Source: Rickettsiales bacterium (lineage in GTDB: Bacteria > Pseudomonadota > Alphaproteobacteria > Rickettsiales > Rickettsiaceae). From it: a DNA stretch of 64,000 bases. The position numbers and the translations under genes were made by a program. Below are positions 9,358 to 47,103 of the stretch, piece after piece. How positions within the stretch are numbered: the first letter of the stretch is position 1; every line of letters starts with the position of its first letter. Where the stretch lies: positions 1-64,000 of the forward strand of contig CANGTI010000002.1 in the NCBI GenBank assembly GCA_947456795.1. Reading direction: 5' to 3'. The notes beneath the pieces were generated by a model. That model worked only from the letters and a program-made list of their open reading frames with translations, was not told where the DNA came from and did no database searches.

Positions 9358-9858
9358 TTACCTTTTATAACGATCCAGCTTGTTTTTATTCTTATTGTTA
9401 TTGTTATTGCGAAGTCCTTTGGTTTTTAAAACCTTATCCCAATAGATGCCAAAGATAGAGACAAGAGTCAGGCTTGCTGTATACATCCCTCCTAAGGAGA
9501 GGGCTTTGTATGAAAAACCCATTTTTGCAAATTTTAGTACTACAAGAAATACAAATATTGTTGAACAGGCGCCAAACATTTGGCCTAGCACTCTTGCTAT
9601 GAAATTGATTCTTAAAATCGTATGAGTTGTTTTGTGTCTATAGTCTTGTTCTTTCTGAGCTATGCTTAGAGCGTGTTCCAGTGTTCCTGGATACAAAGCT
9701 TCATATTCAGATATGACTTCAATTGGAGGCAGGACCTTATCTATTCTTAGATTGTGTTTTGGGCTTGATTTAGTACCACTTTGCTCTCTCTCCATGTGTC
9801 CTTTGTTTAACATATTGTGCTCATTGCGAAAATAATGTTTTATTTCTCTATCTTGCAT
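9358..9858 (-). CDS. DUF2335 family membrane protein
   Basis: The 166-residue protein has the region typical of DUF2335: a proline/acidic lead (LPPIEVISEYEALYPGTLEHAL), a basic segment (AQKEQDYRHKTTH), then two predicted membrane helices (about residues 92-112 and 118-138). Members are often found in phage-derived or mobile regions; their function is unknown. It follows the GTA-like cluster in the same direction and may belong to it. The extreme C-terminus is a low-complexity tail of asparagines and lysines (near residues 151-161), encoded by a short AAT/AAC-rich run, which is unusual and probably unstable. The start is the first ATG of the frame. Confidence 0.75.
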   Translation of the reverse strand: MQDREIKHYFRNEHNMLNKGHMEREQSGTKSSPKHNLRIDKVLPPIEVISEYEALYPGTLEHALSIAQKEQDYRHKTTHTILRINFIARVLGQMFGACSTIFVFLVVLKFAKMGFSYKALSLGGMYTASLTLVSIFGIYWDKVLKTKGLRNNNNNKNKNKLDRYKR

Positions 9859-9903: not shown

Positions 9904-10077
9904 TTACACTTCAGATTGGTTTGAACCATTGGCAGTAGCCTGTGGTTCTTGCATGCTTTCGTCTTTATGGTGAGTCTCTTGCTTTTTGTAATAACGGCAA
10001 GAGTCGGATATTCCTAAAACAAAATTTTTAAAGAAACTTTTTTCTTTTTTATAATGAGATATGTTGATGTGAATCAT
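9904..10077 (-). CDS. small protein of unknown function (57 aa)
   Basis: A short ATG-initiated frame on the minus strand, 24 bp after the stop of the gp13-like gene and before the DUF2335 gene. The product begins MIHINISHYKKEKSFF and is hydrophilic, rich in Lys, His, Gln and Ser towards its end. It has no recognisable domain. Its position and orientation fit a last small member of the GTA-like transcription unit, or a remnant of a deleted tail gene (the gp14/gp15 position in the reference order). It may equally be non-coding spacer. Confidence 0.35.
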   Translation of the reverse strand: MIHINISHYKKEKSFFKNFVLGISDSCRYYKKQETHHKDESMQEPQATANGSNQSEV

Positions 10078-10101
10078 TTGTTCTTGCTGCTTTATATTGT
10101 A

Positions 10102-10905
10102 TTACAAAGGTAAGTTGGGCTCTCCCTGAAAATTAACAGCATTGTCATACAAAACACAAGTTGAAAAAATCTTATTGCACCCTGGTGTCAGGGTGATGTT
10201 TGTTTCTCGCTTATCTTTGAAATTTTGTAACACAATCTGAGGAAAAGAGCTTTGTAAAAGCACAATTCCAATTTGATAATCAACACCTTGTTCCACTTTG
10301 CCCAGAATATGTTTTAATACTACTCTACTTATGCCACTAATTACTGCGGTTCCAAGATCGAAATAGTTATTTCCGTATTGTGCGTGCCTTTCGGGTACTG
10401 AAAAGGAAACTTCATTTTCATATATCTTTAAGATATCATAAGTTTGAGATAATTGCTTTAGATCTTTTTTGCATCTCGCATCTCCAAATTGAGCTCTGCA
10501 AGTTCTGCTGTATCTTTTAGAAAAAATCTGGCGCATAGACTGTGTCCCCGATTCTAAATACATGTGAAAACTTCTGACAAAATCTGCTACTTTGACGCAG
10601 CGGCATAATGCAAAAGGTGTAATTGTATTATTTTGAGGATCGAAAGTTTGAATGCGTACTGTGCATCCAAGTAACGGAAGTTGGCGCTGCACTCCTGTTT
10701 GTTCGTATGCACCTTCTAGTACTACACTTATTGTCCCATTGTCCTTAAAGGTGGCGAACTGCACATTTAAACAAGAAGCTTCGTAAAAATCATTTTGATT
10801 GGCCGTGCATTTGATTGCATGGCTTGCGCTTGTTAATTTGAGTTCTTGGCCGTCTTCTAGTTTGAGAGTAAAGAGGTAATGATGGTCAATCAAGATTACA
10901 GACAT
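10102..10905 (-). CDS. GTA/phage tail protein, gp13-like (DUF2163 / phage_BR0599 family)
   Basis: This 267-residue protein resembles the conserved tail-tip component located after the DUF2460 gene in alphaproteobacterial gene transfer agents. The diagnostic C-terminal half contains SKRYSRTCRAQFGDARCKKDL (about residues 130-149), matching the family's paired-cysteine CRA-x-x-GD-x-RC motif. The N-terminal region (YLFTLKLEDGQELKLTSASHA) corresponds to the family's first beta-rich domain. Length is slightly short of the usual ~290. It follows the gp12-like gene by 25 bp in the reference GTA order. Confidence 0.8.
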   Translation of the reverse strand: MSVILIDHHYLFTLKLEDGQELKLTSASHAIKCTANQNDFYEASCLNVQFATFKDNGTISVVLEGAYEQTGVQRQLPLLGCTVRIQTFDPQNNTITPFALCRCVKVADFVRSFHMYLESGTQSMRQIFSKRYSRTCRAQFGDARCKKDLKQLSQTYDILKIYENEVSFSVPERHAQYGNNYFDLGTAVISGISRVVLKHILGKVEQGVDYQIGIVLLQSSFPQIVLQNFKDKRETNITLTPGCNKIFSTCVLYDNAVNFQGEPNLPL

Positions 10906-10930
10906 GGGGTTTACATGGAATAGCTTTAGT

Positions 10931-11551
10931 CTATTTTAGCACTTCTACTAAATCAAAAGGTTCAACCGAAGCGCAAAAATCAAGCTCTGATTTATATTTT
11001 AGTGAATCTGTATCAAATCTCACAGGAATATTGAAGTCAAAATCGGCTCTTAAAAGCTCTATGTTTTCTTGCAACACTTCTTCCGTAACGGTCACTATTC
11101 CACGTTCATCTGAGATATTTTTTACTACTCTTTCTTTTTTATCATTAATAAATACTCTGACCGAATCTTTTATTGGTTTGAGGATTTTTCTGTGAGGAGC
11201 ATTGCACGTATGTTGCAACGTTTTGTCGTAGGACTTAATTAATTGAAATTTGAGATTTTGCCTATCTAAAAGGAGCAAGGGTTGATTTTCAGCTTTGTGT
11301 TCATTTGGATCTCTTAATATAAAAGCATATTTTTTTCCTTGGACTTTGCAGAAGAAATTTTGCAGTTCCCCTACTTGAGTGGAGGTTAATTTGCAATTTG
11401 CAACTTTATATCTATTTATTGGAGTAATGTGGTTTGCAAATCGCACTTCTCTTTTGCTGTTAGAAGTTTGTACTTCAGTGCTAAATGTAGGACCTCCTAC
11501 AATAAAGGTATATAAAAAACTTGGTAATTCTTCGTCAAAAAAATCTTCCAT
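10931..11551 (-). CDS. GTA/phage tail protein, gp12-like (DUF2460)
   Basis: A 206-residue protein with the DUF2460 pattern: an N-terminal FFDEELPSFLYTFIVGGPTFST, then REVRFANHITPINRYKVANCKL and FFCKVQGKKYAFILRDP. The family is a distal tail component of lambda-like phages and RcGTA-type agents. Length matches the usual ~210 residues. The initiating ATG is 7 bp after the stop of the upstream fusion gene. In reference GTAs, genes for the major tail protein, a chaperone and the tape measure lie between the gp8 and gp12 homologues; here those three are absent. Confidence 0.8.
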   Translation of the reverse strand: MEDFFDEELPSFLYTFIVGGPTFSTEVQTSNSKREVRFANHITPINRYKVANCKLTSTQVGELQNFFCKVQGKKYAFILRDPNEHKAENQPLLLLDRQNLKFQLIKSYDKTLQHTCNAPHRKILKPIKDSVRVFINDKKERVVKNISDERGIVTVTEEVLQENIELLRADFDFNIPVRFDTDSLKYKSELDFCASVEPFDLVEVLK

Positions 11552-11558
11552 AGCTTAT

Positions 11559-12443
11559 TTATACTAATTGACTGCTCGTATCTTTTTCTAACGATATTGT
11601 GCCCTGATATTTTATTTGGGCTCTGACAGAGAACCTATCTTCTGTTGTATCCCAAGAAGTTCCAACGTGGTCTAAAGTGCTAATTTTGTACTGATAACGA
11701 CTTTTTGTTCCAAAGGATTGTTCTGAGTAGATCTTGGATTGAACTTTCTCAATTGTTTTTATACTGATGGCTGTGACACATTTGCTTGCAAGTAAAATCA
11801 TAAAACTCTGGTTGTAGCTTATTGCGTTAATAGAAAAGCCAATTTCATAAGATGGCAAGGCAGTAGCGCATGGTTTTAAAAAATTCATTTTGATTATAAT
11901 GCAGGGGTATTTGTCTACGTTGTCTTGCTCTTCTAGATAAACCATACATTTTTCAGAGCCATGTAAAATTGACTCTGAAAGAGTGGTTTGTATGGTACAT
12001 AAAATGCTTTGTACAAAATTAAACACCTCATCACTTGGTCTTGATTCCATTAAGGGCATTGTTTGGGCGGGTAGAGGTACCGCTATGATGTTTAAGAATC
12101 GACTGTTTTTATCGTGTTTTGATATGTCTTTAATCTTAAACCAGTCTTGTGCCTTTAAAATTCTCATTTTATGAGAGATTTCTGGAAGTTTCCTAATTTG
12201 AAAAATGTGGTAGGGGTTTACAAAAGAGACGCCAAAATGCAAGGGATTTATCGTTTTAACAAAATTTTGAGGATCCAAATAATTTGCTTGTGTATCGTAT
12301 TTTTTTATCCAGACATAGTCTCGTTTTGTGCTACTGGTCTGAGTATTTTGTTCTTCTATATTCCTGAAGATCTTTTGTTCTTGGCTATGTAGGGAAATCT
12401 TGTATTTAAAAGATTTGGGCAAAGGTATTTGCATTAGAGACAC
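11559..12443 (-). CDS. probable fused GTA head-tail adaptor (gp7-like) and tail terminator (gp8/DUF3168-like)
   Basis: The 294-residue protein is about as long as gp7 and gp8 together and lies exactly where those two genes are expected. Residues ~40-125 fit the head-tail joining adaptor pattern (W-I-K-K near 47-50, then HIFQIRKLPEISHKMRILKA and DWFKIKDISKHD). Residues ~140-290 fit the DUF3168 tail-completion pattern (VFNFVQSILCTIQTTL near the start, YEIGFSINAISYNQSF in the middle, and a terminal DRFSVRAQIKY strand). No internal stop or restart separates them. The start overlaps the connector gene by 10 bp, implying translational coupling. The fusion reading is inference; a single diverged protein is the alternative. 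Confidence 0.6.
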   Translation of the reverse strand: MSLMQIPLPKSFKYKISLHSQEQKIFRNIEEQNTQTSSTKRDYVWIKKYDTQANYLDPQNFVKTINPLHFGVSFVNPYHIFQIRKLPEISHKMRILKAQDWFKIKDISKHDKNSRFLNIIAVPLPAQTMPLMESRPSDEVFNFVQSILCTIQTTLSESILHGSEKCMVYLEEQDNVDKYPCIIIKMNFLKPCATALPSYEIGFSINAISYNQSFMILLASKCVTAISIKTIEKVQSKIYSEQSFGTKSRYQYKISTLDHVGTSWDTTEDRFSVRAQIKYQGTISLEKDTSSQLV

Positions 12444-12964
12444 AATCTTCTGTAAGGCTGATAAAGTTCAATAGAGTCGTTGTTTTGTATCAACGCGGGA
12501 GATTGTCTATAATGCATGTTGTATATGTGATGTAATACTCCTTCTTTTATTGCATAAGGCGTGACTTCGTGCTGATTCCATCCTGCTTCGTATCTTATTT
12601 CTGTAATTGATTGTTTCTCCCTCTCCTTTTGCGTTAGCATATTTTCTTTGAGGTCATAATTATTCATTAAAGATTCTGGATTTTCTATCTCTCGATCTCC
12701 TTGCTTGCAGCTAAGGAATTTCGTGGCAAATGCAACCGGTAGTGTTATCGTTTTATTGGTAGAGGCTTTTGTTGTGTAGACGATTGTTTGGGTGACGATG
12801 CAGCGTCTTAGAAAAGATTCCGCTGCATCAATCGCGCATCCCAGCATTTGTTCCAAAACTTGATCTTCATCTGGATTGTTGTTATCTATCCAGAGACGTA
12901 CTTTGATGACATCAAGTGGTAGAAAATCTGTATATTTTTTTTCTAATATAAAATACTGGGACAT
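12434..12964 (-). CDS. GTA/phage head-tail connector, gp6-like
   Basis: A 176-residue, mainly helical protein whose N-terminus (FLPLDVIKVRLWIDNNNPDEDQ) and helix LEQMLGCAIDAAESFLRR match the gp6-type head-tail connector family (phage_QLRG/PhiE125 gp8-like), which forms the ring beneath the portal. The C-terminal part (PYAIKEGVLHHIYNMHY) contains the usual last helix. Reference proteins are about 190-200 residues. It lies 40 bp after the capsid gene and overlaps the following gene by 10 bp. Confidence 0.75.
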   Translation of the reverse strand: MSQYFILEKKYTDFLPLDVIKVRLWIDNNNPDEDQVLEQMLGCAIDAAESFLRRCIVTQTIVYTTKASTNKTITLPVAFATKFLSCKQGDREIENPESLMNNYDLKENMLTQKEREKQSITEIRYEAGWNQHEVTPYAIKEGVLHHIYNMHYRQSPALIQNNDSIELYQPYRRLCL

Positions 12965-13004
12965 TTTTGGGTGTTGTGTTTAGTGTCTTGGACAGCCTTT
13001 TAGC

Positions 13005-14126
13005 TTACTCCTCTGAGTATGTAAGAGCGACTAGCGCATCTGGGTTTACCAAATCTCCTCCAACCCTTTTTACTGCATAAAAACCAACAAAGGGTCTATT
13101 GGAATATGGGTCCCGCATGATGGGTATTTCTCTGTGGTCTATTATTTTATAAGCAGATTTAAAATCTCCAAACAATATGATCGCTTCTCCTTTCGATTCA
13201 GCCTTATATTGAGGCATGTACTCAGAGCATAAAACTTTGTATCCCAAAAGAGTTTCTGGCATGTTGTAGTTTATTTTGGGGCTCCATAAAAATCTTCCTA
13301 CTTCGTCTCTAAGTGTTTGTATTTTAACTAAAGTGCTCTTATGCATGAGAAAAGTTGCATTATGGTGATATTGATTACTTAACTTAGAGACTAAAGCTAT
13401 TAGTGCATCTCGTAGGTATTTTTCTTCGGTGCTGGCAATGTTTTGTTTATTTGCTTGCTTGAGATTGTTTAGTATGCCCGTTGGTTCGCATTTATCTTTT
13501 CCGTGTAAGAAGCTTTCTTCCTCTTTTTGAGCAAAGCTATAGCTTAATTGCTCTATTAACCAGCTTTCAACATCTACACAGGCATCTTCTAGCAAAGTCT
13601 GCGTTGCTTGAGGTAGTGCATATAATTCGTGTAGCAAGATTCTTTGTTTTTTTATTGTTGGAGTATCTGTTGACTTTTTTTTCAGTTGATCATTTATGAC
13701 CCAGTCACATTCAAATCCTCCGTCTTGCACTACAACGTCTAATCCTCCTGTTGATATTTCTTCAATGGAGGATATTTCCCGTATTGGAGAAAGGTGTTTT
13801 AAGGCACCAATGATTTTGCGACCTATGGAGGTCTCTATTACTGAATCATGGGAGTTTTTTTCATCGCCAAAGGCCAAGTTTTTACGTATAAGATTTGGAT
13901 GTATATTACCTTTCCTAATGTAGTCAGAAATATAATTCTCTTCTATCAATCCGTCTTTTGTCAAAATTGCACTATCTGGTCTTTGATTGTTCATTGCCAG
14001 ATCTTTGTACCTCCTTTCTAAGTTGTCCATTTTTTCTCTTAATTGTGATGTTTCGTGCTCGTGCTGAGAGTGAAATTTGCTCCAATTGTTTGCTAATTCT
14101 TCAATTTTTTGGGCTGCATGTTCCAT
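13005..14126 (-). CDS. HK97-fold major capsid protein (GTA gp5-like)
   Basis: A 373-residue phage-type capsid protein. The first ~50 residues form a charged coiled coil (HEHETSQLREKMDNLERRYKDL), the delta/scaffold domain normally removed by the prohead protease. The rest follows the HK97 fold of GTA capsids: SIGRKIIGALKHLSPIREIS, then QDGGFECDWV, TLLEDACVDVESWL, the G-loop area FLHGKDKCEPTGIL, and the C-terminal YAVKRVGGDLVNPDALVAL. Length is near the RcGTA capsid. It is followed by the connector gene and preceded by the protease gene, 23 bp away, the usual order. Confidence 0.9.
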   Translation of the reverse strand: MEHAAQKIEELANNWSKFHSQHEHETSQLREKMDNLERRYKDLAMNNQRPDSAILTKDGLIEENYISDYIRKGNIHPNLIRKNLAFGDEKNSHDSVIETSIGRKIIGALKHLSPIREISSIEEISTGGLDVVVQDGGFECDWVINDQLKKKSTDTPTIKKQRILLHELYALPQATQTLLEDACVDVESWLIEQLSYSFAQKEEESFLHGKDKCEPTGILNNLKQANKQNIASTEEKYLRDALIALVSKLSNQYHHNATFLMHKSTLVKIQTLRDEVGRFLWSPKINYNMPETLLGYKVLCSEYMPQYKAESKGEAIILFGDFKSAYKIIDHREIPIMRDPYSNRPFVGFYAVKRVGGDLVNPDALVALTYSEE

Positions 14127-14149
14127 AGTTAAACTGATCTTAAATGTTT

Positions 14150-14647
14150 TTATAGTGTGAGCCTTAATGATTTTGCTGTGCTAATAAGTTGTATTAAATT
14201 GTCAGATTCTGATTTTTCATAAATAGAACTAATTTTTGCATTAAGGTTTGCTGGAAATGTTACGACACTAATCTCATAAAGAATTGCCTCTGAGATTTCG
14301 TTATAACCTTTTGAATTAATTGTAGCTCTTTTAGGAATTATGCCGACGCTTAGTCCCCTTACTATGCCAGCTTTTATAAGCTCAGCTGTTTCACGTCCGA
14401 CTTGAGTTTTGGTTGTAATTGTTGCTTTTATGAAAAGTCCATAATTATCCTCTTTTATTTGAGTGATTGATCCTATTGGATTGTATGCGTCGTGTTGCCA
14501 CAAAAGCTTGAGGGCACAGTTGCTTGTTTCCAGAGTGTCCTTAAATGCGCCCTCTTTAATAATATCGTGGGCTTGATCAACACACCTGAACACACTTGCG
14601 TAACCCTGTATTTGGATTTCTTTTGCAAATGTGAGGGCTGGGCTCAT
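14150..14647 (-). CDS. HK97-family prohead protease (GTA gp4-like)
   Basis: A 165-residue serine protease that matures capsid proteins. The expected catalytic elements are visible: His in LLWQHD, Ser in RGLSVGI, and an acidic residue in the segment YEISVVTFPAN. N-terminal IQIQGYASVFRCVDQAHDI is the typical opening strand. It is the first gene of the minus-strand GTA-like cluster. Large terminase and portal genes, which normally precede it, are absent: trpS is divergent on the other side. The cluster therefore lacks its DNA-packaging genes here; in Rickettsiales GTA genes are often scattered over several loci. Confidence 0.88.
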   Translation of the reverse strand: MSPALTFAKEIQIQGYASVFRCVDQAHDIIKEGAFKDTLETSNCALKLLWQHDAYNPIGSITQIKEDNYGLFIKATITTKTQVGRETAELIKAGIVRGLSVGIIPKRATINSKGYNEISEAILYEISVVTFPANLNAKISSIYEKSESDNLIQLISTAKSLRLTL

Positions 14648-25863: not shown

Positions 25864-26133
25864 ATGAACACTTTTGTTTATACGGTTTTAATTTTAACAC
25901 TAGTTTTGATATCAGCATTTGTTGTATTAAAATTATTTGGCAAATCTTTAGGAGTGCTTTTTCCCCAAAGGTTATTTAAAGCTAGAAGCTGTGAAATTGA
26001 GTACCTCACCTACATTGACCACGGTACAAAATGCGCACTTTTGCATCACAAAAATAAAAGTTATCTTTTGTTGCTAAGTAAAAACAATAATTTGCTTTTG
26101 GATAGTTATGAAAAATCCGAAAAATCTGACTAG
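25864..26133 (+). CDS. fliO: FliO-like flagellar export protein
   Basis: An 89-residue protein with one membrane helix (about residues 7-27) and a small cytoplasmic domain (CEIEYLTYIDHGTKCALLHHKNKSYLLLLSKNNNLLLDSYE) fitting FliO, which assists FliP assembly in the flagellar export gate. The ATG at 25864 is taken because the upstream extension is not FliO-like. Its end overlaps the start of fliP by 26 bp, which supports the assignment: fliO-fliP order is standard. Confidence 0.75.
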   Translation: MNTFVYTVLILTLVLISAFVVLKLFGKSLGVLFPQRLFKARSCEIEYLTYIDHGTKCALLHHKNKSYLLLLSKNNNLLLDSYEKSEKSD

Positions 26134-26878
26134 ATTCTGTTTGATTTTCCTATTATTGCTCTTTTGTATCTCGAATCCTGTATTTGCGGCAAGTAAAGCA
26201 AGTTTTAGTGTGGACGATGTTCAGAAACTTCTTGCTGGGCCTTCTTTTAGTGGTCGAGTGATTCAGGTTTTTTTACTCATAGGAGTTTTGGGGTTGGCGC
26301 CCTCGTTGCTCATTATGGTTACTTCTTTTGTGAGAATTTCTATAGTGCTATCTATTGTAAGGACGGCACTTGGGTTGCAGCAGTCTCCTCCGAATCAGGT
26401 TCTAAACTGTTTGGCATTATTTTTAACTTTTTTTATAATGTCATCTTCATTTAAACAGGCTTACGATTGCGGACTAAAACCACTAATTGCTGAGACATTG
26501 TCGCCAGAAGAAGCTATACCCCTCATTGTTGAGCCGTTTAAGAAATTTATGGTGGCAAATACCCGCAGCAAAGATTTAGAGCTTTTTTCTGGTATAGCCC
26601 AGGTAGAAATCAACAGTGATTCATTGGAAAATTTACCTTTGGAGGTAGTGATTCCGTCCTTTATGATTAGCGAATTAAGGAGAGGTTTTGAAATAGGCTT
26701 TTTGCTGTTTTTGCCTTTTTTAATAATTGATATTGTGATAGCATCGATTTTGATGGCAATGGGAATGATGATGATGCCTCCTATTATGGTGTCTTTACCA
26801 TTTAAGATTATCTTCTTTGTACTTATCGACGGTTGGTATCTGCTTGCTGGAAGTTTGACTAAAGGCTTTATCACTTAA
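26108..26878 (+). CDS. fliP: flagellar type III export apparatus protein FliP
   Basis: Core component of the flagellar export gate. The 256-residue protein has a cleavable signal (MKNPKNLTRFCLIFLLLLFCIS...VFA), then ILIGVLGLAPSLLIMVTSFVRISIVLSIVR in essence and the QSPPNQVL motif, a periplasmic loop, and two C-terminal helices with ASILMAMGMMMMPP. All are FliP hallmarks. It overlaps fliO. fliQ is present about 4.3 kb further on the opposite strand; fliR is not in the window. Retention implies that a flagellum or a related export gate was kept. Confidence 0.96.
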   Translation: MKNPKNLTRFCLIFLLLLFCISNPVFAASKASFSVDDVQKLLAGPSFSGRVIQVFLLIGVLGLAPSLLIMVTSFVRISIVLSIVRTALGLQQSPPNQVLNCLALFLTFFIMSSSFKQAYDCGLKPLIAETLSPEEAIPLIVEPFKKFMVANTRSKDLELFSGIAQVEINSDSLENLPLEVVIPSFMISELRRGFEIGFLLFLPFLIIDIVIASILMAMGMMMMPPIMVSLPFKIIFFVLIDGWYLLAGSLTKGFIT

Positions 26879-32170: not shown

Positions 32171-33484
32171 TTATGTAATTCCATGTGGATCTGATTTTTC
32201 CTTGTTTTCGAAATACTTTAAAGACCAGTGAAAAAATAAACCTAAAGGCACTAGTATTACTAAAAGTCCTGAGATACCCAGTTTTGCTGTTGCAAAGACC
32301 ATTCCAAAAGACATTGAGGAAATTGTCACCAACAACGCTACTGCATTAATAATGGCTACATATCTAAATCTGGCAAACACAGGAAAGTATTTAAAAAACA
32401 AAGCATTTGCCGGTACTTGGTCAAAGGTGACGCAACAAGCAGTACATTGAAAATAAAATACTACTTGTGGGCTAGGGTTTAGGTGCATTTGTACAAGAAA
32501 TATTCCTAAAAACGTAAAAAAGCATATTAGGCTTACTCGTGTAATCTTTAGCGGCGATATGTAATATGTGATGTATGAAAGCACAAGTAGCGCTATCGTA
32601 TCTACAAAAGTGACCCAAAAATTATTTGTTATGACTTGTGCGGCAGTAAAACCAAAGTCCTTTCTTAGTATTTCTCCACAGTAGATGTATATTAAATAAA
32701 AGCACGCCGGTCCTCCGCAACGAATTCCAAAATATGCTATAGAAGTTAAAACCTCTGTTTTAGGCTGAATTGCGATGTTTGAGTGCTGCTCTTTCAACTG
32801 TTGCTTTATGGTTGACCTATCTGCAAATTCAGATGCTTCCCTAAGAGATCTTCTTGCCACTGCTCCAATAATTCCAATGCATGCCCCAAGTAGGAAAGCA
32901 AATCTCCAAGCATTCTTAGACCACTCAGGTGGAATTAATGACGTTACAATGTAACCAACTCCAAGGGCAGCCAGCCCTCCCAAAGACATGATGACCACCA
33001 TAAACGTAACTAATCTGTACTGTTTTCTTGGCGTTTTTACAGTCTCGGTTACATATATTTCTACACCCACTACTTCCGCAGTGACGGATATATTTTGTAT
33101 AGCGCGACATATTGTGAGTACTATAGGGGCAGTGATACCTATCTGGGCATAAGTGGGTAAGGCTGCCACAACCACACAGCAGCAAGCCATCAGAGTTGTA
33201 GCAATTATAATTGTTACTTTTCTTCCTAATAAATCTCCAAGGTATCCAAATAAAATTGCTCCAAATGGCTTTAGAACAAAGTTGGAGCAAAAGGTAAACG
33301 CAGGAATAAAGGGTGTAAATCTATTATTTTGCGAGAAAAATAAATCATTTAATACAACTGCAAGATGTATATGCAGCATGCAGTCAAAATACTCTAAAAA
33401 CGTCCCTAAGGATAAAAGAGCTATTCCATGGGTCTGGTCTTTTGACAATTTATCATCCACATCTTTCTTTTTAGAATGATCCAT
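32171..33484 (-). CDS. MFS transporter, tandem-array member MFS-1
   Basis: The last gene of the array in transcription order; 437 residues, twelve helices. TM1 has FLEYFDCMLHIHLAV and the loop 2-3 motif is GYLGDLLGRK (80-89). The TM4 motif reads CRAIQN (126-131) where most paralogues have CRMIQG or CRMVQG, so a conserved glycine is lost. The TM7 Cys-x-x-Pro motif is CGGP (256-259), and the loop 10-11 signature is PANALFFKYFPVFARFRY. The central loop (KEQHSNIAIQPKTEV) is shorter than in MFS-2 to MFS-5. A decayed relative lies between it and MFS-2. Confidence 0.88.
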   Translation of the reverse strand: MDHSKKKDVDDKLSKDQTHGIALLSLGTFLEYFDCMLHIHLAVVLNDLFFSQNNRFTPFIPAFTFCSNFVLKPFGAILFGYLGDLLGRKVTIIIATTLMACCCVVVAALPTYAQIGITAPIVLTICRAIQNISVTAEVVGVEIYVTETVKTPRKQYRLVTFMVVIMSLGGLAALGVGYIVTSLIPPEWSKNAWRFAFLLGACIGIIGAVARRSLREASEFADRSTIKQQLKEQHSNIAIQPKTEVLTSIAYFGIRCGGPACFYLIYIYCGEILRKDFGFTAAQVITNNFWVTFVDTIALLVLSYITYYISPLKITRVSLICFFTFLGIFLVQMHLNPSPQVVFYFQCTACCVTFDQVPANALFFKYFPVFARFRYVAIINAVALLVTISSMSFGMVFATAKLGISGLLVILVPLGLFFHWSLKYFENKEKSDPHGIT

Positions 33485-34117
33485 ATGATTTAAACAACTA
33501 AGGTAAACAATTTAAGACACAGTTATTGTCTACTGTTTATTAATTTTTTGTAAAGAGTGTTTAGTATAAATTGATCAAATTTTACGCACAGAGTACTTAA
33601 GAAAAATATTCCGCTTTTTGTAAAAGGCCCTATTTTTCGTCTTTATCTTTTTTTTAAAGTATCTTCAGGTCCCTGCAAATAATCCTATAATTGGAATAAC
33701 TTTGATCAAACTTGCGTACCTGAATCTCTTTAGTGCCGGAAAGTATCTAAAAAATATTGGTGCAGCAGGTGGACAATCAAATCTCACAATTAGGCAGAGA
33801 TATTGAAAAAATTGTATTTTTTTAAGAGAAGGTAAAGCATTCATTAAATGGAAAAGATGCTATGAAGAGAAAGCTAAGTAACTCTCAATTTTATTATTCT
33901 GTTAAATACTGGTGCGAAAGCTACAATTGGGCACTTTCTTCAGGATTTTATTCTTTCATTGAGATATATTTCAACTCTATTAACTGTAGCTAAAGCTTAC
34001 ACTAGCGTTAGTAAGAATGAGAAGTATGTTGTGACTAAAGGTTTTTGTTAGAGGCAATCTAAAAGATATTCACACTTTCAACGGCAAGCAATTCTACTTT
34101 TTTTACATTCTAAATTC
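33485..34117. other. 633-bp interval holding a decayed MFS copy
   Basis: No intact gene. The left part (33485-33646) is AT-rich spacer with a TAAACA/TGTTTA inverted repeat upstream of MFS-1. The centre and right contain two blocks that translate on the minus strand into MFS-array sequence; these are listed as a pseudogene. From 33996 to 34117 nothing is recognised. Confidence 0.7.
33647..33995 (-). pseudogene. decayed MFS-array transporter
   Basis: Two blocks in the correct relative order survive. At 33905-33995 the minus strand reads VEIYLNERIKS-stop-RKCPIVAFAP, aligning with VEIYLSESLKPPLQYPVVAL of MFS-2. At 33647-33815 it reads RFDCPPAAPIFFRYFPALKRF and RYASLIK, then a short stretch, a stop, and RYFKKK, aligning with the loop 10-11 signature and the C-terminus. 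The segments for TM5-TM9 and TM11-TM12 are deleted. The surviving blocks are closest to the MFS-2 to MFS-5 subgroup. Confidence 0.85.
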
Positions 34118-35434
34118 TTACCTTTTTTGCATTTGTTCTCTTTGCTCGAAATAATAAATTCCCCAGGCAAAGCAAATACTAAACGGAATAAAAATTAGCA
34201 AAATTCCGCTTTGGCCAAATTGTTTTGTAGCATATGCTAAAAGAAAGGAGGTTGTTGTATAAGAAAAAGTTATTGCAACAGAGCGTATCAAACTTGTGTA
34301 TCTGAACCTTTTTAATGCGGGAAAGTACTTAAAAAATATTGGTGCAGCTGGGGTATAATCAAATCTAAAGGTTGCCCAGATACATTGAAATAAGATTAAA
34401 GTTTTTGGGGTGTGCCATTGGTAAAACACAAGAATAAATAGTACAAGACTTACTAAAAAAATTACTAACTTAAACTTGATTATCCACAGCGGTCGTAACT
34501 TATAGCTGCAGTAGGCTACTAACAAAGATATTAGTAGGTTCAATATAGCTGGAAGCATATTGTTATCTATTATCTGAGTAGGAGTATATTTAAATTCATT
34601 TCTTAGTATTTCTCCGCAATGAAATAACATGAGGTAAAAACATAAAGGTCTTGCGCAACAAATAAAAAAATATGCCAAACAAGTTGCAAAAGGTACTTTT
34701 GGGTTAATAGACGGATTTTTTTTGCTCCATTTAATATCAGCTTTTTTAAATGCTTCTTTTAGTAGTTTTTGTTTGTCTGAAAATTCTGTAGCTTCTTTTA
34801 GGCTACTTCTTGCAACGTTTCCTACCATCCCTATTATTGATCCTATTAGAAAAGCCAACCTCCAAGAATTTCCGGACCAATTATTTAAAACCATTGTATT
34901 AGTACAAATGTATGCCATACAAAGGGCGAGGAAACTTCCAAGCCTACCAAAGGAGGCTACTAGAGCAACAACTGGATACTGCAGAGGAGGTTTTAGACTT
35001 TCAGAGAGGTAAATTTCAACTCCAGTAACTTCTGCAGCTCCAGACATTCCTTGTATCATTCTACAAAATATAAAGAGAATTGAAGCGGTAACGCCTATCT
35101 GTTCATACGTAGGTAAAAAGGCAAATGTTAAACAGCAAGCAGATATCAACAAAGAACTCACTATTATTGTGGATCTTCTACCAAAAATATCGCCTAGATA
35201 ACCAAAAAATAAAGCCCCTACGGGAGACAAGAAATATGTTGAAGAAAAGGAGAAAGCTGGAAGGAATTCTTTTATGAAACTTGATTTTTGAGGGAAAAAC
35301 AAATCATTAATTATAACTGCGATATGACCGTGCAGCATTCTATCAAAATCCTCCAAAAAGACTCCAATTGATAAGAGGGCAATTGCATGTGTTTGCTCTT
35401 TTGTTAATTTTGTTTGAGTTTTATCTGTTGTCAT
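34118..35434 (-). CDS. MFS transporter, tandem-array member MFS-2
   Basis: A 438-residue transporter of the MFS-2 to MFS-5 subgroup. TM1 is VFLEDFDRMLHGHIAV with an extra acidic residue; the loop 2-3 motif is GYLGDIFGRR; TM4 has CRMIQGMSGAAEVTGVEIYLSES. The long central loop KKADIKWSKKNPSINPKVPF is a subgroup marker. TM7 has CARP and the loop 10-11 signature is PAAPIFFKYFPALKRFRY. The ATG at 35434 is preferred; a GTG two codons earlier is possible. An 8-bp inverted repeat (TTAAAGTT 35443-35450 / AACTTTAA 35471-35478) sits just upstream. Confidence 0.88.
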   Translation of the reverse strand: MTTDKTQTKLTKEQTHAIALLSIGVFLEDFDRMLHGHIAVIINDLFFPQKSSFIKEFLPAFSFSSTYFLSPVGALFFGYLGDIFGRRSTIIVSSLLISACCLTFAFLPTYEQIGVTASILFIFCRMIQGMSGAAEVTGVEIYLSESLKPPLQYPVVALVASFGRLGSFLALCMAYICTNTMVLNNWSGNSWRLAFLIGSIIGMVGNVARSSLKEATEFSDKQKLLKEAFKKADIKWSKKNPSINPKVPFATCLAYFFICCARPLCFYLMLFHCGEILRNEFKYTPTQIIDNNMLPAILNLLISLLVAYCSYKLRPLWIIKFKLVIFLVSLVLFILVFYQWHTPKTLILFQCIWATFRFDYTPAAPIFFKYFPALKRFRYTSLIRSVAITFSYTTTSFLLAYATKQFGQSGILLIFIPFSICFAWGIYYFEQREQMQKR

Positions 35435-35546
35435 AAGCACACTTAAAGTTGTCCCCTTCTCTTATTAGGTAACTTTAAATTACTAAAAAGCAAGATTTGT
35501 TTTTGTGCAGTGTAGTGTTGTTTATAACTACTAGGTAAGATACTTT

Positions 35547-36860
35547 TTATTTAGTAAGTGGTTTTTCTTTTTGTTTAAAGTAGTTAAGACTCCAGGCAAA
35601 ACAGGCGCTAAATGGAATAAAAACTAGTAAAATTCCTGCATGGCCAAATTTTTTACTAAGTATAGTAAGCCCAAATGAAGTAAGCACTGTAGTAAAAACC
35701 ATAGATAAGGAATTAATTAGGCTGGCATACCTAAACCTTTTTATTGTTGGAAAATGTTTGTAAAATATTGCTCCTGCCGGAATATAATCAAACCTCGTGA
35801 TTGTAAAAATGCACTGAAAAAGTAGAACTATTTGAGGTTTTTTCCAGATATGCAAGACTAAAGGAAAGCACATGATCAACATCATGAAGGATATTAATCT
35901 AAACTTTATAATCTTTAAGGGGTGTATCTTGTAGCTAAGGCAACATATCACTAGACAGGTACATAAATTTAATACAGCGGGCAGTAAATTGTTTTGCATC
36001 ACTTGTTTTGCATTCAACCCAAAGGTATTGTGCAATACTTCTGCGCAATAGAAAAAGATAATGTAAAAACAAGCAGGCCTTGCACAATTGATGAAAAAAT
36101 AAGCCAGAGATGTAGCAAAAGGAACTTTAGGATTAATAGAGAGATTAGTTTTACTCCACTCTATGTTTGCCTTTTTAAATTGTGTTTTAAGCCATTGTTG
36201 TCTGTCTGCCAATCCTGTAGCCTCTTTCAGACTTCCTCTTGCAGCAGCTCCTACGACCCCCACTACAGCTCCTGCCAAAAAAGCCAATCTCCAGGGGTCA
36301 TGAATAAAATTTTGATACATTGAATGGCTTGAAAAAAATATTGCAACACCAAGTGCTGCAAGGCTTCCAAGTTTATTAAATACAGATACTAATGCCACTA
36401 CTGAGTATTGTACCGGAGGCTTTGTGCTTTCGGTTAAGTATATTTCTACACCATTAAATTCAACAAATGCTGTCATGCCTTGGAGCATGCGTACTATAAT
36501 TAAGATAATGGGAGCTGCAATACCTATTTGCTTATATGTAGGTAAAAAAGCTAATATTATAGAGCAAATTGCCATTAAGGTTGAGCTTAGAATGATCAGG
36601 GCTTTTCTACCTGAGATATCAGCCAAGCGTCCAAAAAATATGGCCCCTAAGGGAGCTAAAAAATAGTTAGAGCAAAAAGCAAATGCAGGTATTAATGAAT
36701 TAATAAAATGATCTGTTTGAGAGAAGAATAAGTTGTTGAGATAAGGAGACATATAAGCGTAGAGCATTCTGTCAAAATCCACTAAGAATACTCCTGTGGA
36801 CAGAAGGACTAGGGCTTGTATTTGATCTTTTGTTAATTTTGTTTGAGGCTTTTCTTGCAT
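35547..36860 (-). CDS. MFS transporter, tandem-array member MFS-3
   Basis: A 437-residue transporter. TM1 is VFLVDFDRMLYAYMSPYLNNLFF, the most altered TM1 of its subgroup (Glu replaced by Val, His of YVHM by Tyr). The loop 2-3 motif is GRLADISGRK, with Ala before Asp. TM4 reads VRMLQGMTAFVEFNGVEIY, lacking the usual Cys. The central loop is KKANIEWSKTNLSINPKVPF; TM7 has CARP; the loop 10-11 signature is PAGAIFYKHFPTIKRFRY. The N-terminus QEKPQTKLTKDQ is shared with MFS-4 and MFS-5. A strong inverted repeat at 36870-36911 lies 9 bp upstream of the ATG. Confidence 0.88.
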   Translation of the reverse strand: MQEKPQTKLTKDQIQALVLLSTGVFLVDFDRMLYAYMSPYLNNLFFSQTDHFINSLIPAFAFCSNYFLAPLGAIFFGRLADISGRKALIILSSTLMAICSIILAFLPTYKQIGIAAPIILIIVRMLQGMTAFVEFNGVEIYLTESTKPPVQYSVVALVSVFNKLGSLAALGVAIFFSSHSMYQNFIHDPWRLAFLAGAVVGVVGAAARGSLKEATGLADRQQWLKTQFKKANIEWSKTNLSINPKVPFATSLAYFFINCARPACFYIIFFYCAEVLHNTFGLNAKQVMQNNLLPAVLNLCTCLVICCLSYKIHPLKIIKFRLISFMMLIMCFPLVLHIWKKPQIVLLFQCIFTITRFDYIPAGAIFYKHFPTIKRFRYASLINSLSMVFTTVLTSFGLTILSKKFGHAGILLVFIPFSACFAWSLNYFKQKEKPLTK

Positions 36861-36869
36861 CGTTTCTAC

Positions 36870-36911
36870 AACTCTAGATTAATCAATATAATTATTGAGT
36901 AATCTAGAATT
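36870..36911. repeat. inverted repeat upstream of MFS-3
   Basis: Arms 36870-36888 and 36893-36911 (19 bp, two mismatches; core TCTAGATTA) with a 4-nt loop TAAT. It ends 9 bp before the MFS-3 start codon, so in RNA it would be a 5'-UTR hairpin; in DNA it could be an operator. Related repeats precede MFS-4 and MFS-5. Confidence 0.75.
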
Positions 36912-36947
36912 ACTAAAATGCAAGTGCTTTTTATACTTTTAGATTTT

Positions 36948-38309
36948 TCACAAATGTTCAGCAAATGTGCTTTTTTGTCTGGAAATAAATTGTGCTTTTT
37001 GCGACTCTTGCTGTTTTTCAAAATATCTCACAGCCCATGCAAAACACGCTCCAATAGGAAGTAATACCAATAGAATTCCGGTATGACCAAAATGCTTTGT
37101 GATTATTACCAAGCTAAAAGATGTGATGAGGTACGTTAGAGTTGTTGCAAGTGTTCTTATTAGGCTTGCGTATCTAAATCTTTTTAATACAGGAAAATAT
37201 TTTAGAAAGATTGGAGCGGCTGGTATGTATTCGAATCTAAACACTACCAAAAGGCACTGAAAAAATAATACAGCACTTGGACTATGCCAGATTTTTATTA
37301 CTATGGGAAAAAGCATTACTAAAAGAAAAAACAGTGTAATTTTAACTTTCACGATTTTCAAAGGTGCTATTTTATAACTTAAGAATGCTACTATTAATGA
37401 TCCGATGGTGTACAGAATTGCTGGCCAAATGTTATTGGTAATAATTTGAGCCGCACTCATGTGAAACGTATTTTTTAAAATCTCTGAACAATGCAAAAAT
37501 ACAAAATAGAAGGATAAGGGTCTTGAACAATATATAAAGAAGTAAGCTATTGAAGTAGATAAAGGAATTTTGGGATTAATGGATGGATTACTTGCGCTCC
37601 ACTCGATCTTTGCTTTTTTAAATTTTTCCTTTAAGAACTTTTGCCTGTCTGCAAATTCTGATGCCTCTTTTAGACTTCTTCTTGCCATGCCTCCAATGAC
37701 TCCGATTAGAGTTCCTATCAGAAAGGCTATACGCCAACCATCTTTTGCAAGAGGCTCCGGTAATATTTTTGTATTTATAAAAAAACTAGCGATGCATAAC
37801 GCTGCTAAACTACCAAGACTTTGAAATACTCCAACAAAGGCTACGATCGGGTATTGTGCCGGAGGTTTTATACTTTCAGTCAAATATATTTCTACTCCAG
37901 TGATTTCTGAAATTCCAGACGTACCTTGTATCATTCTACAAAGAGTGAAAATCAATGTTGCGGTAATTCCTATTTGTTCGTAGGTAGGCAAAAAAGCCAC
38001 AATTATGCAGCATCCCGCCATAAGCAAAGAGCTGGTTACTATAATTGCCTTTCTTCCAAATATATCACCAATATATCCAAACAATAGAGCGCCCAATGGT
38101 GTAAGAAAATAGCTAGAACAAAATGCAAAAGCTGGAATAAATTCTTTTACTAAAGGGTCTGTTTGAGGGAAAAATAAGTCATTTAATACTACTGATGCAT
38201 GCACATACAGCATTCTATCAAAGTGTTCCAGCAAAGATCCTATGGATAAAAGCGCCACAGCTTGTATTTGATCTTTTGTTAATTTTGTTTGGGTTCTTTC
38301 TTGCAGCAC
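36948..38309 (-). CDS. MFS transporter, tandem-array member MFS-4
   Basis: A 453-residue transporter starting at GTG (38309), aligned with the starts of MFS-3 and MFS-5 through QERTQTKLTKDQ. TM1 is LLEHFDRMLYVHASVVLNDLFF, loop 2-3 GYIGDIFGRK, TM4 CRMIQGTSGISEITGVEIYLTES. The central loop is KKAKIEWSASNPSINPKIPL, TM7 has CSRP, and the loop 10-11 signature is PAAPIFLKYFPVLKRFRY. It has a longer hydrophilic C-terminal tail (QKAQFISRQKSTFAEHL) than most members. It ends 87 bp before the MFS-3 start. Confidence 0.88.
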   Translation of the reverse strand: MLQERTQTKLTKDQIQAVALLSIGSLLEHFDRMLYVHASVVLNDLFFPQTDPLVKEFIPAFAFCSSYFLTPLGALLFGYIGDIFGRKAIIVTSSLLMAGCCIIVAFLPTYEQIGITATLIFTLCRMIQGTSGISEITGVEIYLTESIKPPAQYPIVAFVGVFQSLGSLAALCIASFFINTKILPEPLAKDGWRIAFLIGTLIGVIGGMARRSLKEASEFADRQKFLKEKFKKAKIEWSASNPSINPKIPLSTSIAYFFIYCSRPLSFYFVFLHCSEILKNTFHMSAAQIITNNIWPAILYTIGSLIVAFLSYKIAPLKIVKVKITLFFLLVMLFPIVIKIWHSPSAVLFFQCLLVVFRFEYIPAAPIFLKYFPVLKRFRYASLIRTLATTLTYLITSFSLVIITKHFGHTGILLVLLPIGACFAWAVRYFEKQQESQKAQFISRQKSTFAEHL

Positions 38310-38315
38310 GAATAC

Positions 38316-38357
38316 AACTTTTGATTAATCGGTATAAACATTGATTAACTTAAAGTT
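38316..38357. repeat. inverted repeat upstream of MFS-4
   Basis: Arms 38316-38330 and 38343-38357 match as AACTTT...TTAATC with three central mismatches. It starts 6 bp before the GTG start of MFS-4 and shares the TTGATTAA word with the stronger repeats before MFS-3 and MFS-5. It is weaker than those two. Confidence 0.5.
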
Positions 38358-38393
38358 TTTTTAAATCAAGCTATTTTAGATCTTAAAATTTTA

Positions 38394-39752
38394 TCAGTTG
38401 GAAGAAATTGTGTTTTTTTGGATTTCAATGCCTTGCCTCTGTGATACTTTTTCTTTTTGCTCAAAATGATAAATGCCCCAAGTAAAGCAAATACCGATTG
38501 GAAAGAAAATTAATAAAATACCATTAGTGCCAAACTCTTTTGTAACTAATTCAAAACCAAAAGCAGCAACGCCAAAAGTGATAAGTGTGGAAATAGCCCG
38601 TATTAAGATTGCATATCTGAATCTTTGCAGAATTGGAAAATGCTTGAAAAATATCGGGGCAGCTGGCATATAATCAAATCTGACAAATACCAAAATACAT
38701 TGAAAGAGCAATATAGTATTAGAGCTGTGCCAAATGTTAAAAGCTATAAGAAAAAATATTATTCCAGTAATAAAGAGGGCTACTTGTAATTTAATGATCT
38801 TAAGAGGGGCTATAATACCACTACAATATACAGTTCCCAGTAGTGCTATTACGTTTAAAATAGTAGGAAAAAGGTTGTTTTTTACTACCTGAGCTGGTGT
38901 GAAACCAAAGGTGTGGTGCAATATACTACCGCAGTGAAAGTATATAAAATATGCGCATACTGGCATGCCGCAATGAACAAAAAAATAGGCTACTGAGGTT
39001 GATAAAGGCACATGAGGATTTAGGGATAGGTTGTTTTTGCTCCACTCTATATTGGCCTTTTTGAACTGATCCTTAAGCATTTTTTTTCTGTTTGCGAATT
39101 CGCTTGCTTCTTTTATACTGCCTCTTGTGATTGCTCCAATTATTCCAATAATCGAGCCAACAAAAAAAGCTATTCGCCAACCTTGTATTGGAAAATATTG
39201 ATACGGTAATGTTATGTTAGTAAAAAAGGCTGTTATCCCTAGTGCAAAAGCGCTACCCAAAGTAGCAATCGCGTATGGGAGAGCTACTGCTTGATATTTA
39301 AGTGGGTGCTTAATACTTTCCGTTAGGTATATTTCTACTCCTGTAATTTCTGAAACTCCGGATATGCCCTGAATCATACGACAGGCAGTAAGCAATATTG
39401 GTGCGCTAATGCCTATCTGTGCATATGTGGGGAGAAATGCCACTGTTATACAGCATATTGACATCAGCATTGAGCTTAATACTATCGCAGATCTTCTTCC
39501 TATTGTGTCTCCTACGTATCCAAAAAGTATTGATCCAAATGGAGTTAACAAATAATTAGTACAAAAAGAAAATGCAGGGATCAGAGATTTGATGACTAGA
39601 TGTGTATCTGGAAAAAACACATCATTTAGAATTACTGCCGTATGTAAGTAAAGCATCTTATCAAAGTATTCGAGAAAAGTGCCTATTGAAAGAATGCCTA
39701 CAGTTTGTAATTCCTCTTTTGTCAATTTTGTTTGAGGTTTCTTTGAATGCAT
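38394..39752 (-). CDS. MFS transporter, tandem-array member MFS-5
   Basis: A 452-residue transporter. TM1 is FLEYFDKMLYLHTAVILNDVFF, loop 2-3 GYVGDTIGRR, TM4 CRMIQGISGVSEITGVEIYLTES. The central loop is KKANIEWSKNNLSLNPHVPL. TM7 has CGMP, breaking the CARP/CSRP pattern of its subgroup, and is followed by VCAYFIYFHCGSIL. The loop 10-11 signature is PAAPIFFKHFPILQRFRY. The region between TM5 and TM6 (FFTNITLPYQYFPIQGW) is longer than in its relatives. The start codon is 4 bp from a perfect 20-bp inverted repeat, leaving no room for a Shine-Dalgarno sequence outside the hairpin. Confidence 0.88.
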   Translation of the reverse strand: MHSKKPQTKLTKEELQTVGILSIGTFLEYFDKMLYLHTAVILNDVFFPDTHLVIKSLIPAFSFCTNYLLTPFGSILFGYVGDTIGRRSAIVLSSMLMSICCITVAFLPTYAQIGISAPILLTACRMIQGISGVSEITGVEIYLTESIKHPLKYQAVALPYAIATLGSAFALGITAFFTNITLPYQYFPIQGWRIAFFVGSIIGIIGAITRGSIKEASEFANRKKMLKDQFKKANIEWSKNNLSLNPHVPLSTSVAYFFVHCGMPVCAYFIYFHCGSILHHTFGFTPAQVVKNNLFPTILNVIALLGTVYCSGIIAPLKIIKLQVALFITGIIFFLIAFNIWHSSNTILLFQCILVFVRFDYMPAAPIFFKHFPILQRFRYAILIRAISTLITFGVAAFGFELVTKEFGTNGILLIFFPIGICFTWGIYHFEQKEKVSQRQGIEIQKNTISSN

Positions 39753-39756
39753 AAAA

Positions 39757-39802
39757 GCAACTCTGGATTAATCAATTTCTATATTGATTAATCCAGAGTT
39801 GC
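39757..39802. repeat. perfect 20-bp inverted repeat upstream of MFS-5
   Basis: Arms 39757-39776 (GCAACTCTGG...) and 39783-39802 (...CCAGAGTTGC) are exact reverse complements over 20 bp, with loop TTCTAT. In the transcript it would form a stable stem immediately followed by TTTT and the MFS-5 ATG. It may be a terminator for readthrough from MFS-6, a translation-controlling hairpin, or an operator. Confidence 0.9.
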
Positions 39803-39910
39803 AATAATGCAAGAAAATTTTTATCAAGAAAAAGATTTTTATCAGACTGATCTTCTGTGTTTTTATTTGGCTTTTTTTTACAATCTCTCTTTTTATCCAG
39901 TAAGGAGTGC

Positions 39911-39964
39911 ATGGCAACATTGAGGAATGTGCCCAAGTTTAGAGGAGGCAAACTTGTGTGCCAT
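39911..39964. repeat. nested inverted repeats downstream of MFS-6
   Basis: Outer arms ATGGCA (39911-39916) and TGCCAT (39959-39964) enclose inner arms CAAGTTT (39934-39940) and AAACTTG (39950-39956), giving a bulged hairpin. It lies about 80 bp after the MFS-6 stop in the 293-bp spacer between MFS-6 and MFS-5, which otherwise shows nothing recognisable. Confidence 0.5.
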
Positions 39965-40045
39965 ACCTAAAAAAACACGAACCGTCATGTCATTTTAGGA
40001 TGGCGTAACTTTTACTTTTTTTCTATAGAGCAGTGAAAAAGGTAT

Positions 40046-41350: not shown

Positions 41351-41411
41351 AAATAGATTTTTGTAAAAATTGTTAGGCCTATTGTTTTATAAAAAAGATA
41401 GGCAAAAGATG

Positions 41412-42716: not shown

Positions 42717-42735
42717 AATAGTTTTAAACCTATTT

Positions 42736-44064: not shown

Positions 44065-44100
44065 AATTTTTTAAACCTATTTCTATTTTGTAATCATTGT

Positions 44101-45411: not shown

Positions 45412-45433
45412 GATGTTTTGTTCTAAATTTAAT

Positions 45434-45691
45434 TTATACAGGGCAAAATTGCAGATTTCTTTCCTTCCTCATATATGTCGTGCTCCAACTGGTCACTAAG
45501 GACCAAGAAAAAGCAGTAACAAAAGATGCCAATAAGGGTTTCGTTGCTGTTGGAAAAAATACATCATTGCAAAGTACCCTCATGTGTACGTAAAACATGA
45601 GGTCAAAATATTCAAGGAAACTTGCAATTGATAAAAGACTAAATATCTCTACTTGTTCTTTTGATAATTTTTCTTCCGAAGCTGTGCTCAT
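45434..45691 (-). pseudogene. internally deleted MFS-array transporter
   Basis: An 85-residue frame whose first ~65 residues are a normal array N-terminus (LSKEQVEIFSLLSIASFLEYFDLMFYVHMRVLCNDVFFPTATKPLL in part). The continuation AFSWSLVTSWSTTYMRKERN resembles the C-terminal end of MFS-6 (SFFWSLRYFEKKE): the DNA CACTAAGGACCA at 45495-45506 matches CTTAAGGACCA in MFS-6. The likeliest history is one deletion that removed about 350 codons and joined TM1-TM2 to the last helix. It cannot form a transporter. Spacings to its neighbours are 19 and 22 bp, so it still sits inside the array's transcription unit. Confidence 0.8.
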
Positions 45692-45710
45692 AGCAAAAGA
45701 CGTGATTCAG

Positions 45711-47069: not shown

Positions 47070-47103
47070 AATTTACACTTTTGATTACTAGTTATAAAAA
47101 GGC

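Follow-up and report, generated by a model that had tools for sequence, protein, structure and literature searches.

A probable gene transfer agent spread over three loci of a small Rickettsiales genome, with a reduced and perhaps tube-less tail

The window analysed here, a stretch of 64,000 bp (positions 1–64000 of contig C2; G+C 37%) from the genome of a Rickettsiales bacterium (G000; 573,489 bp, 96% complete), carries a cluster of six genes that is probably the head-and-baseplate part of a gene transfer agent (GTA) of the type known from Rhodobacter capsulatus (RcGTA). This GTA would be vertically inherited, dispersed, DNA-packaging and equipped with a reduced, perhaps tube-less tail. The reading draws on sequence comparisons, in which the head–tail genes are homologous to those of RcGTA and stand in the same order, TerL and portal genes are recognised in the genome, and several loci are conserved, open and under constraint; the gp9 tail tube and the gp14 peptidase were not found in G000. 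The organism probably belongs to the Rickettsiaceae. It was compared with a family sample (f1, taken as Rickettsiaceae) of 58 genomes in 24 genera, in which G011 is its sole congener and G018 represents another genus, and with an order sample of 216 Rickettsiales genomes.

The head–tail cluster

Six open reading frames (ORFs) run on the minus strand of the window from 14647 down to 10102, all of them open and in the order gp4-gp5-gp6-gp7/8-gp12-gp13, which is that of RcGTA (Table 1). The first-pass annotation of the window had reported this order together with close spacing and intact frames, and all six ORFs were recovered as described. In searches against the Protein Data Bank (PDB), the capsid profile, composed of the window protein and its relatives, has RcGTA Rcc01687 (6tb9) as its top match (6e-100), the gp12 profile has RcGTA Rcc01695 (6tba_6B, 2e-49), and the gp13 profile has the RcGTA hub (6tba_7A, 6e-34). 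The gp6 profile matched other adaptors, and the RcGTA adaptor was not among its matches. The protease keeps the His and Ser positions of its aligned relatives, and gp12 and gp13 hit their NCBIfam GTA models at scores under the curated cut-offs. Four cysteines of the hub are invariant across eight aligned rows, in line with the iron–sulphur site described for RcGTA (PMC7296036).

The fourth gene, listed as gp7/8 by the first-pass annotation, is indeed present, but it joins in one fused ORF two genes that G011, G018 and G022 carry separately. The N-terminal half of the 294-residue product aligns to a stopper profile (2.6e-17) and the C-terminal half to a terminator profile (5.5e-14) in hhalign. 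In an AlphaFold model, residues 7–131 resemble the SPP1 gp16 stopper (Z 11.9, 104 aligned, 2.9 Å) and residues 135–285 the RcGTA terminator (Z 12.2, 130 aligned, 3.1 Å), with which other terminators tie; the mean predicted local distance difference test score (pLDDT) is 79 and the predicted template modelling score (pTM) 0.54, so that the orientation of the two domains is unreliable. When the stopper and terminator profiles were compared with the PDB, SPP1-like and other phage proteins came out best, and the RcGTA chains matched weakly (E 0.37 and 0.023). The fusion could also be a single-base assembly error.

Packaging, megatron and holin genes at two other loci

The first-pass annotation had described the packaging genes as missing. 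They are missing from the cluster but not from the genome: a portal gene, an ORF in the position of TerS, and TerL lie open at a second locus, while a third holds the megatron gene gp15 and a holin gene. The GTA genes of G000 are dispersed over three loci, as had been suggested with the idea of a GTA split over several places. Similarly, of gp14 and gp15, which had been reported absent together, only gp14 was found in none of the 58 family genomes; gp15 stands outside the cluster, elsewhere in the genome. The curated models proved insensitive here, since PF03237 missed TerL and PF13550 missed gp15 of G000, and both were recovered by family profiles (A1, the family TerL alignment, and A2, the family gp15 profile).

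The portal profile has the RcGTA portal as its top PDB match (7e-69), and the gp15 profile has the RcGTA megatron (5e-63). TerL keeps all five motif patterns tested, which we take to be ATPase- and nuclease-like, and the same patterns are kept in G011, G018 and G017. Between portal and TerL lies an 89-residue ORF, and ORFs like it sit directly before TerL in G011, G018, G017, genus g4 and others. From this position and conservation the ORF is a candidate TerS; it has no Pfam match, and its G011 relative has no NCBIfam match. The 144-residue protein beside gp15 narrowly passes the cut-off of GTA_holin_3TM (25.7 vs 24.8 bits).

The surroundings of gp15 vary among relatives. In the larger ones (L086, L088, L091, L097), gp15 is followed by an ORF of 217–241 residues, which is DUF2793-like in L088 at a score just under cut-off, and by holin-like and lysozyme-like ORFs (labels assigned by eye); in small genomes, the holin alone is kept beside gp15. 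One member of the sample, G044, carries two full-length gp15 genes (L092, L093), and the L092 copy, which stands in a gp12-gp13-gp15 array, appears to be part of a GTA- or phage-like element of its own.

Conservation of place and distribution in the family

All three loci have the same neighbours in G000, G011 and G018, and all GTA frames are open in these genomes. The window cluster is flanked by DUF2335-type and tyrosyl-tRNA synthetase-like genes on one side and a tryptophanyl-tRNA synthetase-like gene on the other, the portal–TerL locus comes after the same response-regulator-like gene, and the gp15–holin locus has the same rsmD-like and rmuC-like genes on its two sides (names of flanking genes were assigned by eye). 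The shared neighbours in two genera point to vertical inheritance with the host chromosome. Within the family sample, and counting some matches that are fragments, the capsid is matched in 49 of 58 genomes (24/24 genera), TerL in 52 (23/24 genera) and gp15 in 56 (24/24 genera); G023 and G034 also match gp6, gp7, gp8 and gp12.

This distribution bears on whether the cluster might be the remnant of a recently acquired prophage and no GTA. HK97-type capsids are common in phages, and 384 phage records match the capsid. All 384 are less than 60% identical to it, the best among the matches listed reaching 32.5%, whereas the capsids of G011 and G018 are 62% and 42% identical; moreover, two genera carry the genes at shared chromosomal places, and the capsid is matched in every genus of the family sample. 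A prophage remnant is thus scarcely credible, and an ordinary contiguous prophage is ruled against by the three loci, by the places shared between two genera and by the lack of any phage capsid of at least 60% identity.

Selection on the GTA genes

The ratio of nonsynonymous to synonymous substitution (dN/dS), calculated by NG86 between G000 and G011 for ten GTA genes (gp7 and gp8, fused in G000, were left out), is below 0.4 for each gene compared: gp4 0.12, gp5 0.14, gp6 0.39, gp12 0.21, gp13 0.34, portal 0.08, TerS-position ORF 0.15, TerL 0.06, gp15 0.24 and holin 0.04, these values being rough because dS (0.96–2.87) is near saturation. The holin is thus lowest and TerL second lowest of the ten, and 15 flanking genes range from 0.04 to 0.23. 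The amino-acid identity of the GTA genes in this pair is 45–83%. Among less distant pairs of relatives, for which dS is unsaturated, TerL has a dN/dS of 0.05–0.11 across six pairs of genus g4 (dS 0.31–0.45), and the capsid has 0.07–0.25 across 22 pairs in four genera, five of which use a 189-codon piece from G050. When the ten G000 genes were joined (3,185 codons, including their ten own stops; the DUF2335 gene was kept out) and left to evolve neutrally in a simulation, about 36 in-frame stops were obtained at a distance of 0.05 and 203 at a distance of 1. The ratios indicate that the GTA genes are under purifying selection, in agreement with the first-pass annotation, which had proposed dN/dS as its check on function.

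The missing tail tube

With the curated model TIGR02126, the gp9 tail tube is found in 0 of 58 family genomes vs 22 of the 216 Rickettsiales genomes, and TIGR02219 finds the gp14 peptidase in none of the 58. Since curated models had missed TerL and gp15 of G000, these negatives were not trusted, and the searches were redone with profiles of gp9 (A3) and gp14 (A4) taken from Rickettsiales, with a presence cut-off of E <= 0.001. By A3, gp9 is found neither in G000 nor in any of the 58 family genomes, which bears out the first-pass annotation on the missing major tail gene; A4 likewise finds gp14 in 0 of 58. In the order sample, 70 of 216 genomes have gp9 by A3, among them 21 of family f19 (1.1–1.6 Mb) at E 1e-12 to 1e-18; the profile consists of 12 Rickettsiales gp9 proteins, so that 12 of these 70 genomes supplied its rows, and three rows (L113, L114, L128) come from loci without any other recognised GTA gene. 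Partial A3 matches in G024 and G045 (E about 0.05) and A4 fragments in G001 and G036 (0.015 and 0.06) are sub-threshold and were treated as noise. At 96% completeness, G000 may have genes that its assembly does not show, but G011 and G018 argue against this for gp9 and gp14.

The junction of gp8 and gp12 gives a second line of evidence. The usual place of gp10 and gp11, which were not searched by profile, is empty in the window, where gp12 starts 7 bp after the gp7-gp8 ORF. Loci with both genes recognised comprise 31 of family type (22 from genomes of the family sample, 9 from named records) and 38 others, several genomes being counted twice (e.g., L038/L074, L046/L079/L135, L065/L133). In 29 of the 31 family-type loci the spacing lies between -83 and +21 bp, with a 4-bp overlap in 17; the two exceptions, L077 (gap of 1334 bp) and L143 (606 bp), also lack gp9, the ORFs between the two genes being unrelated. 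Among the 38 non-family loci, 37 have gp9 and a gap of 398–7373 bp, and L166 has a 585-bp gap without a gp9 match. The gp9 gene adjoins gp8 in four f19 loci (L213, L214, L215, L220). Near-complete clusters occur in other Rickettsiales families; L117, for one, extends from portal through gp15, after which come ORFs that by eye look like holin and lysozyme genes. The simplest reading is that the content between gp8 and gp12, together with gp14, was lost in an ancestor of the family. In the literature listings and excerpts searched, among them PMC7296036 and PMC2241609, no statement was found that tube loss is limited to Rickettsiaceae, which is weak evidence.

A different arrangement was seen in L123 (8336–9290), a Rickettsiales locus outside the family. 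There gp9 overlaps gp12, and no gene stands between tube and distal tail protein, so that its tape measure, if there is one, must be encoded elsewhere.

The same dispersed and functional GTA might instead possess an ordinary tail, with unrelated or highly divergent proteins from other loci serving as tube and tape measure. Sensitive profiles probed only gp9 and gp14, divergence can hide genes (as the curated models showed with TerL and gp15), and the terminator, known to partner the tube, is retained. Nevertheless, the profile that detects gp9 across the order, reduced family f19 included, detects none in the 58 genomes, and where gp8 and gp12 abut there is no room for a gene at its place. An ordinary tail is therefore rather unlikely.

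Points against the reading

Several observations weigh against a functional, dispersed GTA with a reduced tail. The system is known from its gene sequences. The candidate TerS is assigned by position and has no family match. Besides the near saturation of dS, the dN/dS values of gp6, gp13 and gp15 lie above the range of the flanking genes. In genus g10, TerL is interrupted by stops in G009, G031, G037, G041, G047, G049 and G054 and by one TGA in G057, and stops also occur in the TerL matches of G022 and G050. The capsid was not found in nine of the 58 family genomes, namely G009, G031, G037, G041, G047 and G054 of g10 and G029, G039 and G040 of other genera. The GTA system can thus be lost in the family, so that an intact set in other members is informative; not all members have one. 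The first-pass annotation would have taken decay of the cluster in close relatives as a refutation; the cluster is intact in G011 and G018 and decayed in part of genus g10.

The megatron adds a further point of this kind. In the three smallest genomes, G000, G011 and G018, it is without an N-terminal Gly-rich segment (gp15 at L098 4396–7023, L099 4586–7258 and L100 4974–7493), a segment seen in 12 of 13 other aligned family members (variant in G017 and G007; G019 diverged). The G000 ORF, with 877 codons from stop to stop, is not extendable upstream. Residues 1–46 of the RcGTA megatron make up the constriction of the channel and a part proposed to penetrate the membrane; in RcGTA, DNA is thought to be held by the tape measure and the iris of the megatron (PMC7296036). 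Loss of the segment could therefore mean loss of function, or the way in which DNA is held or enters may be different, or gone, in the smallest genomes.

From these observations it could be argued that the genes are a decaying remnant, relics of a lost GTA that are as yet unbroken in these genomes, in keeping with the decay in g10, the capsids not found, the missing tail genes and the shortened megatron of the smallest genomes. However, the frames are all open in G000, G011 and G018 despite the divergence between the first two, neutral evolution would already have produced dozens of stops at a distance of 0.05, and dN/dS indicates constraint in each gene compared. A remnant is accordingly improbable.

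The genes might also encode a repurposed shell or an injection-like particle that no longer packages DNA, as the first-pass annotation had offered for a cluster with no packaging genes. Classical DNA delivery may indeed be lost with the tube and the channel segment of the megatron. Yet the dN/dS values of portal and TerL, which serve packaging, are some of the lowest of any GTA gene compared, and four genomes keep all five patterns tested in TerL. The premise of that proposal no longer holds, and a particle without packaging is very improbable.

A possible particle

For the preferred reading, a dispersed and DNA-packaging GTA, a particle can be sketched as follows. TerL would use the portal to fill an HK97-type head with chromosomal DNA, one headful at a time, and adaptor, stopper and terminator would close it. 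The distal tail protein and a baseplate of hub and megatron would dock straight onto the terminator ring, resulting in a tail with zero discs vs the five tube discs of RcGTA, and the holin would release the particles. We propose tentatively, as a possibility that falls short of probable, that the family keeps under selection such a zero-disc GTA, with its baseplate directly on the terminator ring and a nearly fixed coupling of gp8 to gp12, and that the smallest genomes have gone further, with gp7 and gp8 fused in G000 and the channel-plug or penetration segment gone from the megatron of G000, G011 and G018. If true, a siphovirus-like particle would have given rise to a domesticated one with a short tail that holds and releases DNA in another way.

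Other features of the window and genome

Beyond gp13, the cluster is followed by a 57-residue ORF, which resembles by eye a 54-residue ORF at the same place in G011 and possibly belongs to the same operon, and by a gene for a DUF2335-type membrane protein, with equivalents at the same place in G011 (PF10097 1.5e-7) and G018 (0.0084). The left edge given by the first-pass annotation, 9904, is the end of the 57-residue ORF. Both may be accessory GTA genes, although the link of DUF2335 to GTA is uncertain. Promoter- and terminator-like sites are no more frequent than in shuffled sequences (17 vs 18.2 and 4 vs 4.1, respectively).

Outside the GTA genes, this 573-kb genome holds a large tandem array of eleven consecutive transporter-like ORFs (434–453 residues), all pairwise similar at 39.5–79% identity (median 44%; 110 of 110 ordered pairs); the four of them that were tested all match MFS_1. 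Flagellar-type genes also occur in this highly reduced genome: FliP is encoded in the window, and on contig C1 three ORFs match Flg_bb_rod, Flg_bbr_C and FliE.

Table 1. Positions of the GTA genes and other features of G000 (window positions unless a contig is given)
Feature	Position	Strand	Matches and remarks
gp4 prohead protease, 165 aa	14150..14647	-	PF04586 7e-28; phrog_80 4e-41; TIGR01543 8.5e-31 (above cut-off)
gp5 HK97-type major capsid protein, 373 aa	13005..14126	-	PF05065 1e-65; TIGR01554 2.7e-76
gp6 head–tail adaptor, 176 aa	12434..12964	-	phrog_442 1.4e-5; PF05135 0.011 (below cut-off); alignment with relatives
gp7-gp8 fused stopper and tail terminator, 294 aa	11559..12443	-	GTG start; PF05521 0.002 (below cut-off); hhalign
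gp12 distal tail protein, 206 aa	10931..11551	-	DUF2460 1e-32; TIGR02217 1.5e-24 (below cut-off)
gp13 baseplate hub, 267 aa	10102..10905	-	PF09931 1e-10; PF09356 1e-7; TIGR02218 1e-15 (below cut-off)
57-aa ORF	9904..10077	-	
DUF2335-type membrane protein	9358..9858	-	phrog_3996 7e-16; PF10097 0.0022 (below cut-off)
Portal	C1 248,802–249,998		portal match 2e-78
TerL	C1 about 250.2–251.7 kb		family alignment 1e-191
Portal–TerL locus	C1 about 248.8–251.7 kb		with candidate TerS, 89 aa
gp15 megatron, 875 aa	C2 194.4–197.0 kb		family profile 3e-231; PF13547 GTA_TIM 7e-50; GTA_megatron 1e-152 (under cut-off)
gp15–holin locus	C2 about 193.9–197.0 kb		
FliP	26108–26878	+	PF00813 4e-74
Transporter-like array	32171–48435	-	
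Flagellar-type ORFs	C1 about 258.7–259.9 kb (L021 12703–13925)		

Relation to known systems and significance

RcGTA (6TBA; PMC7296036) shares with G000 the order of gp4 to gp8, gp12 and gp13 and the GTA holin family, and the profiles for portal, capsid, distal tail, hub and megatron all have an RcGTA chain as their top PDB match. It differs in that the genes of G000 lie at three loci, gp9 and gp14 were not found in G000, gp7 and gp8 are fused, and the megatron has 875 residues vs 1304 and is without the N-terminal segment. In Orientia tsutsugamushi, of the same family as inferred for G000, six GTA genes (terminase, a megatron-type TIM-barrel protein, portal, DUF2163 hub, capsid and protease) are likewise dispersed, at separate conserved places, but the portal is on a RAGE element, whereas that of G000 is beside TerL (PMC10732058). 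Wolbachia and other Anaplasmataceae, also intracellular Rickettsiales, have scattered, vertically inherited GTA loci (PMC9203015); unlike G000, the Wolbachia contig L145 and the four f19 loci keep gp9 directly after gp8, and the L145 capsid is in three ORFs. That GTA-Hunter reported no RcGTA-like cluster in 70 Rickettsiales genomes (PMC6821227) fits the dispersion of the genes.

Scattered GTAs of Rickettsiales are thus already known, and the sharper part of the present analysis is a testable statement about the tail. George and colleagues are said to have reported in 2022 that symbionts of protists (highly reduced Rickettsiales and Holosporaceae) keep GTA head genes under purifying selection, with tail components missing. 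The core of the finding has probably been published already.

Here, a tail-tube gene was not found across the genomes sampled from one family, yet genes for packaging, neck, baseplate and holin are kept, even near 0.6 Mb. If particles form and carry DNA, these obligate intracellular bacteria would keep a selected route to exchange or shed DNA for which a tail tube is dispensable; if they fail to deliver it, the particle must be selected for some other use.

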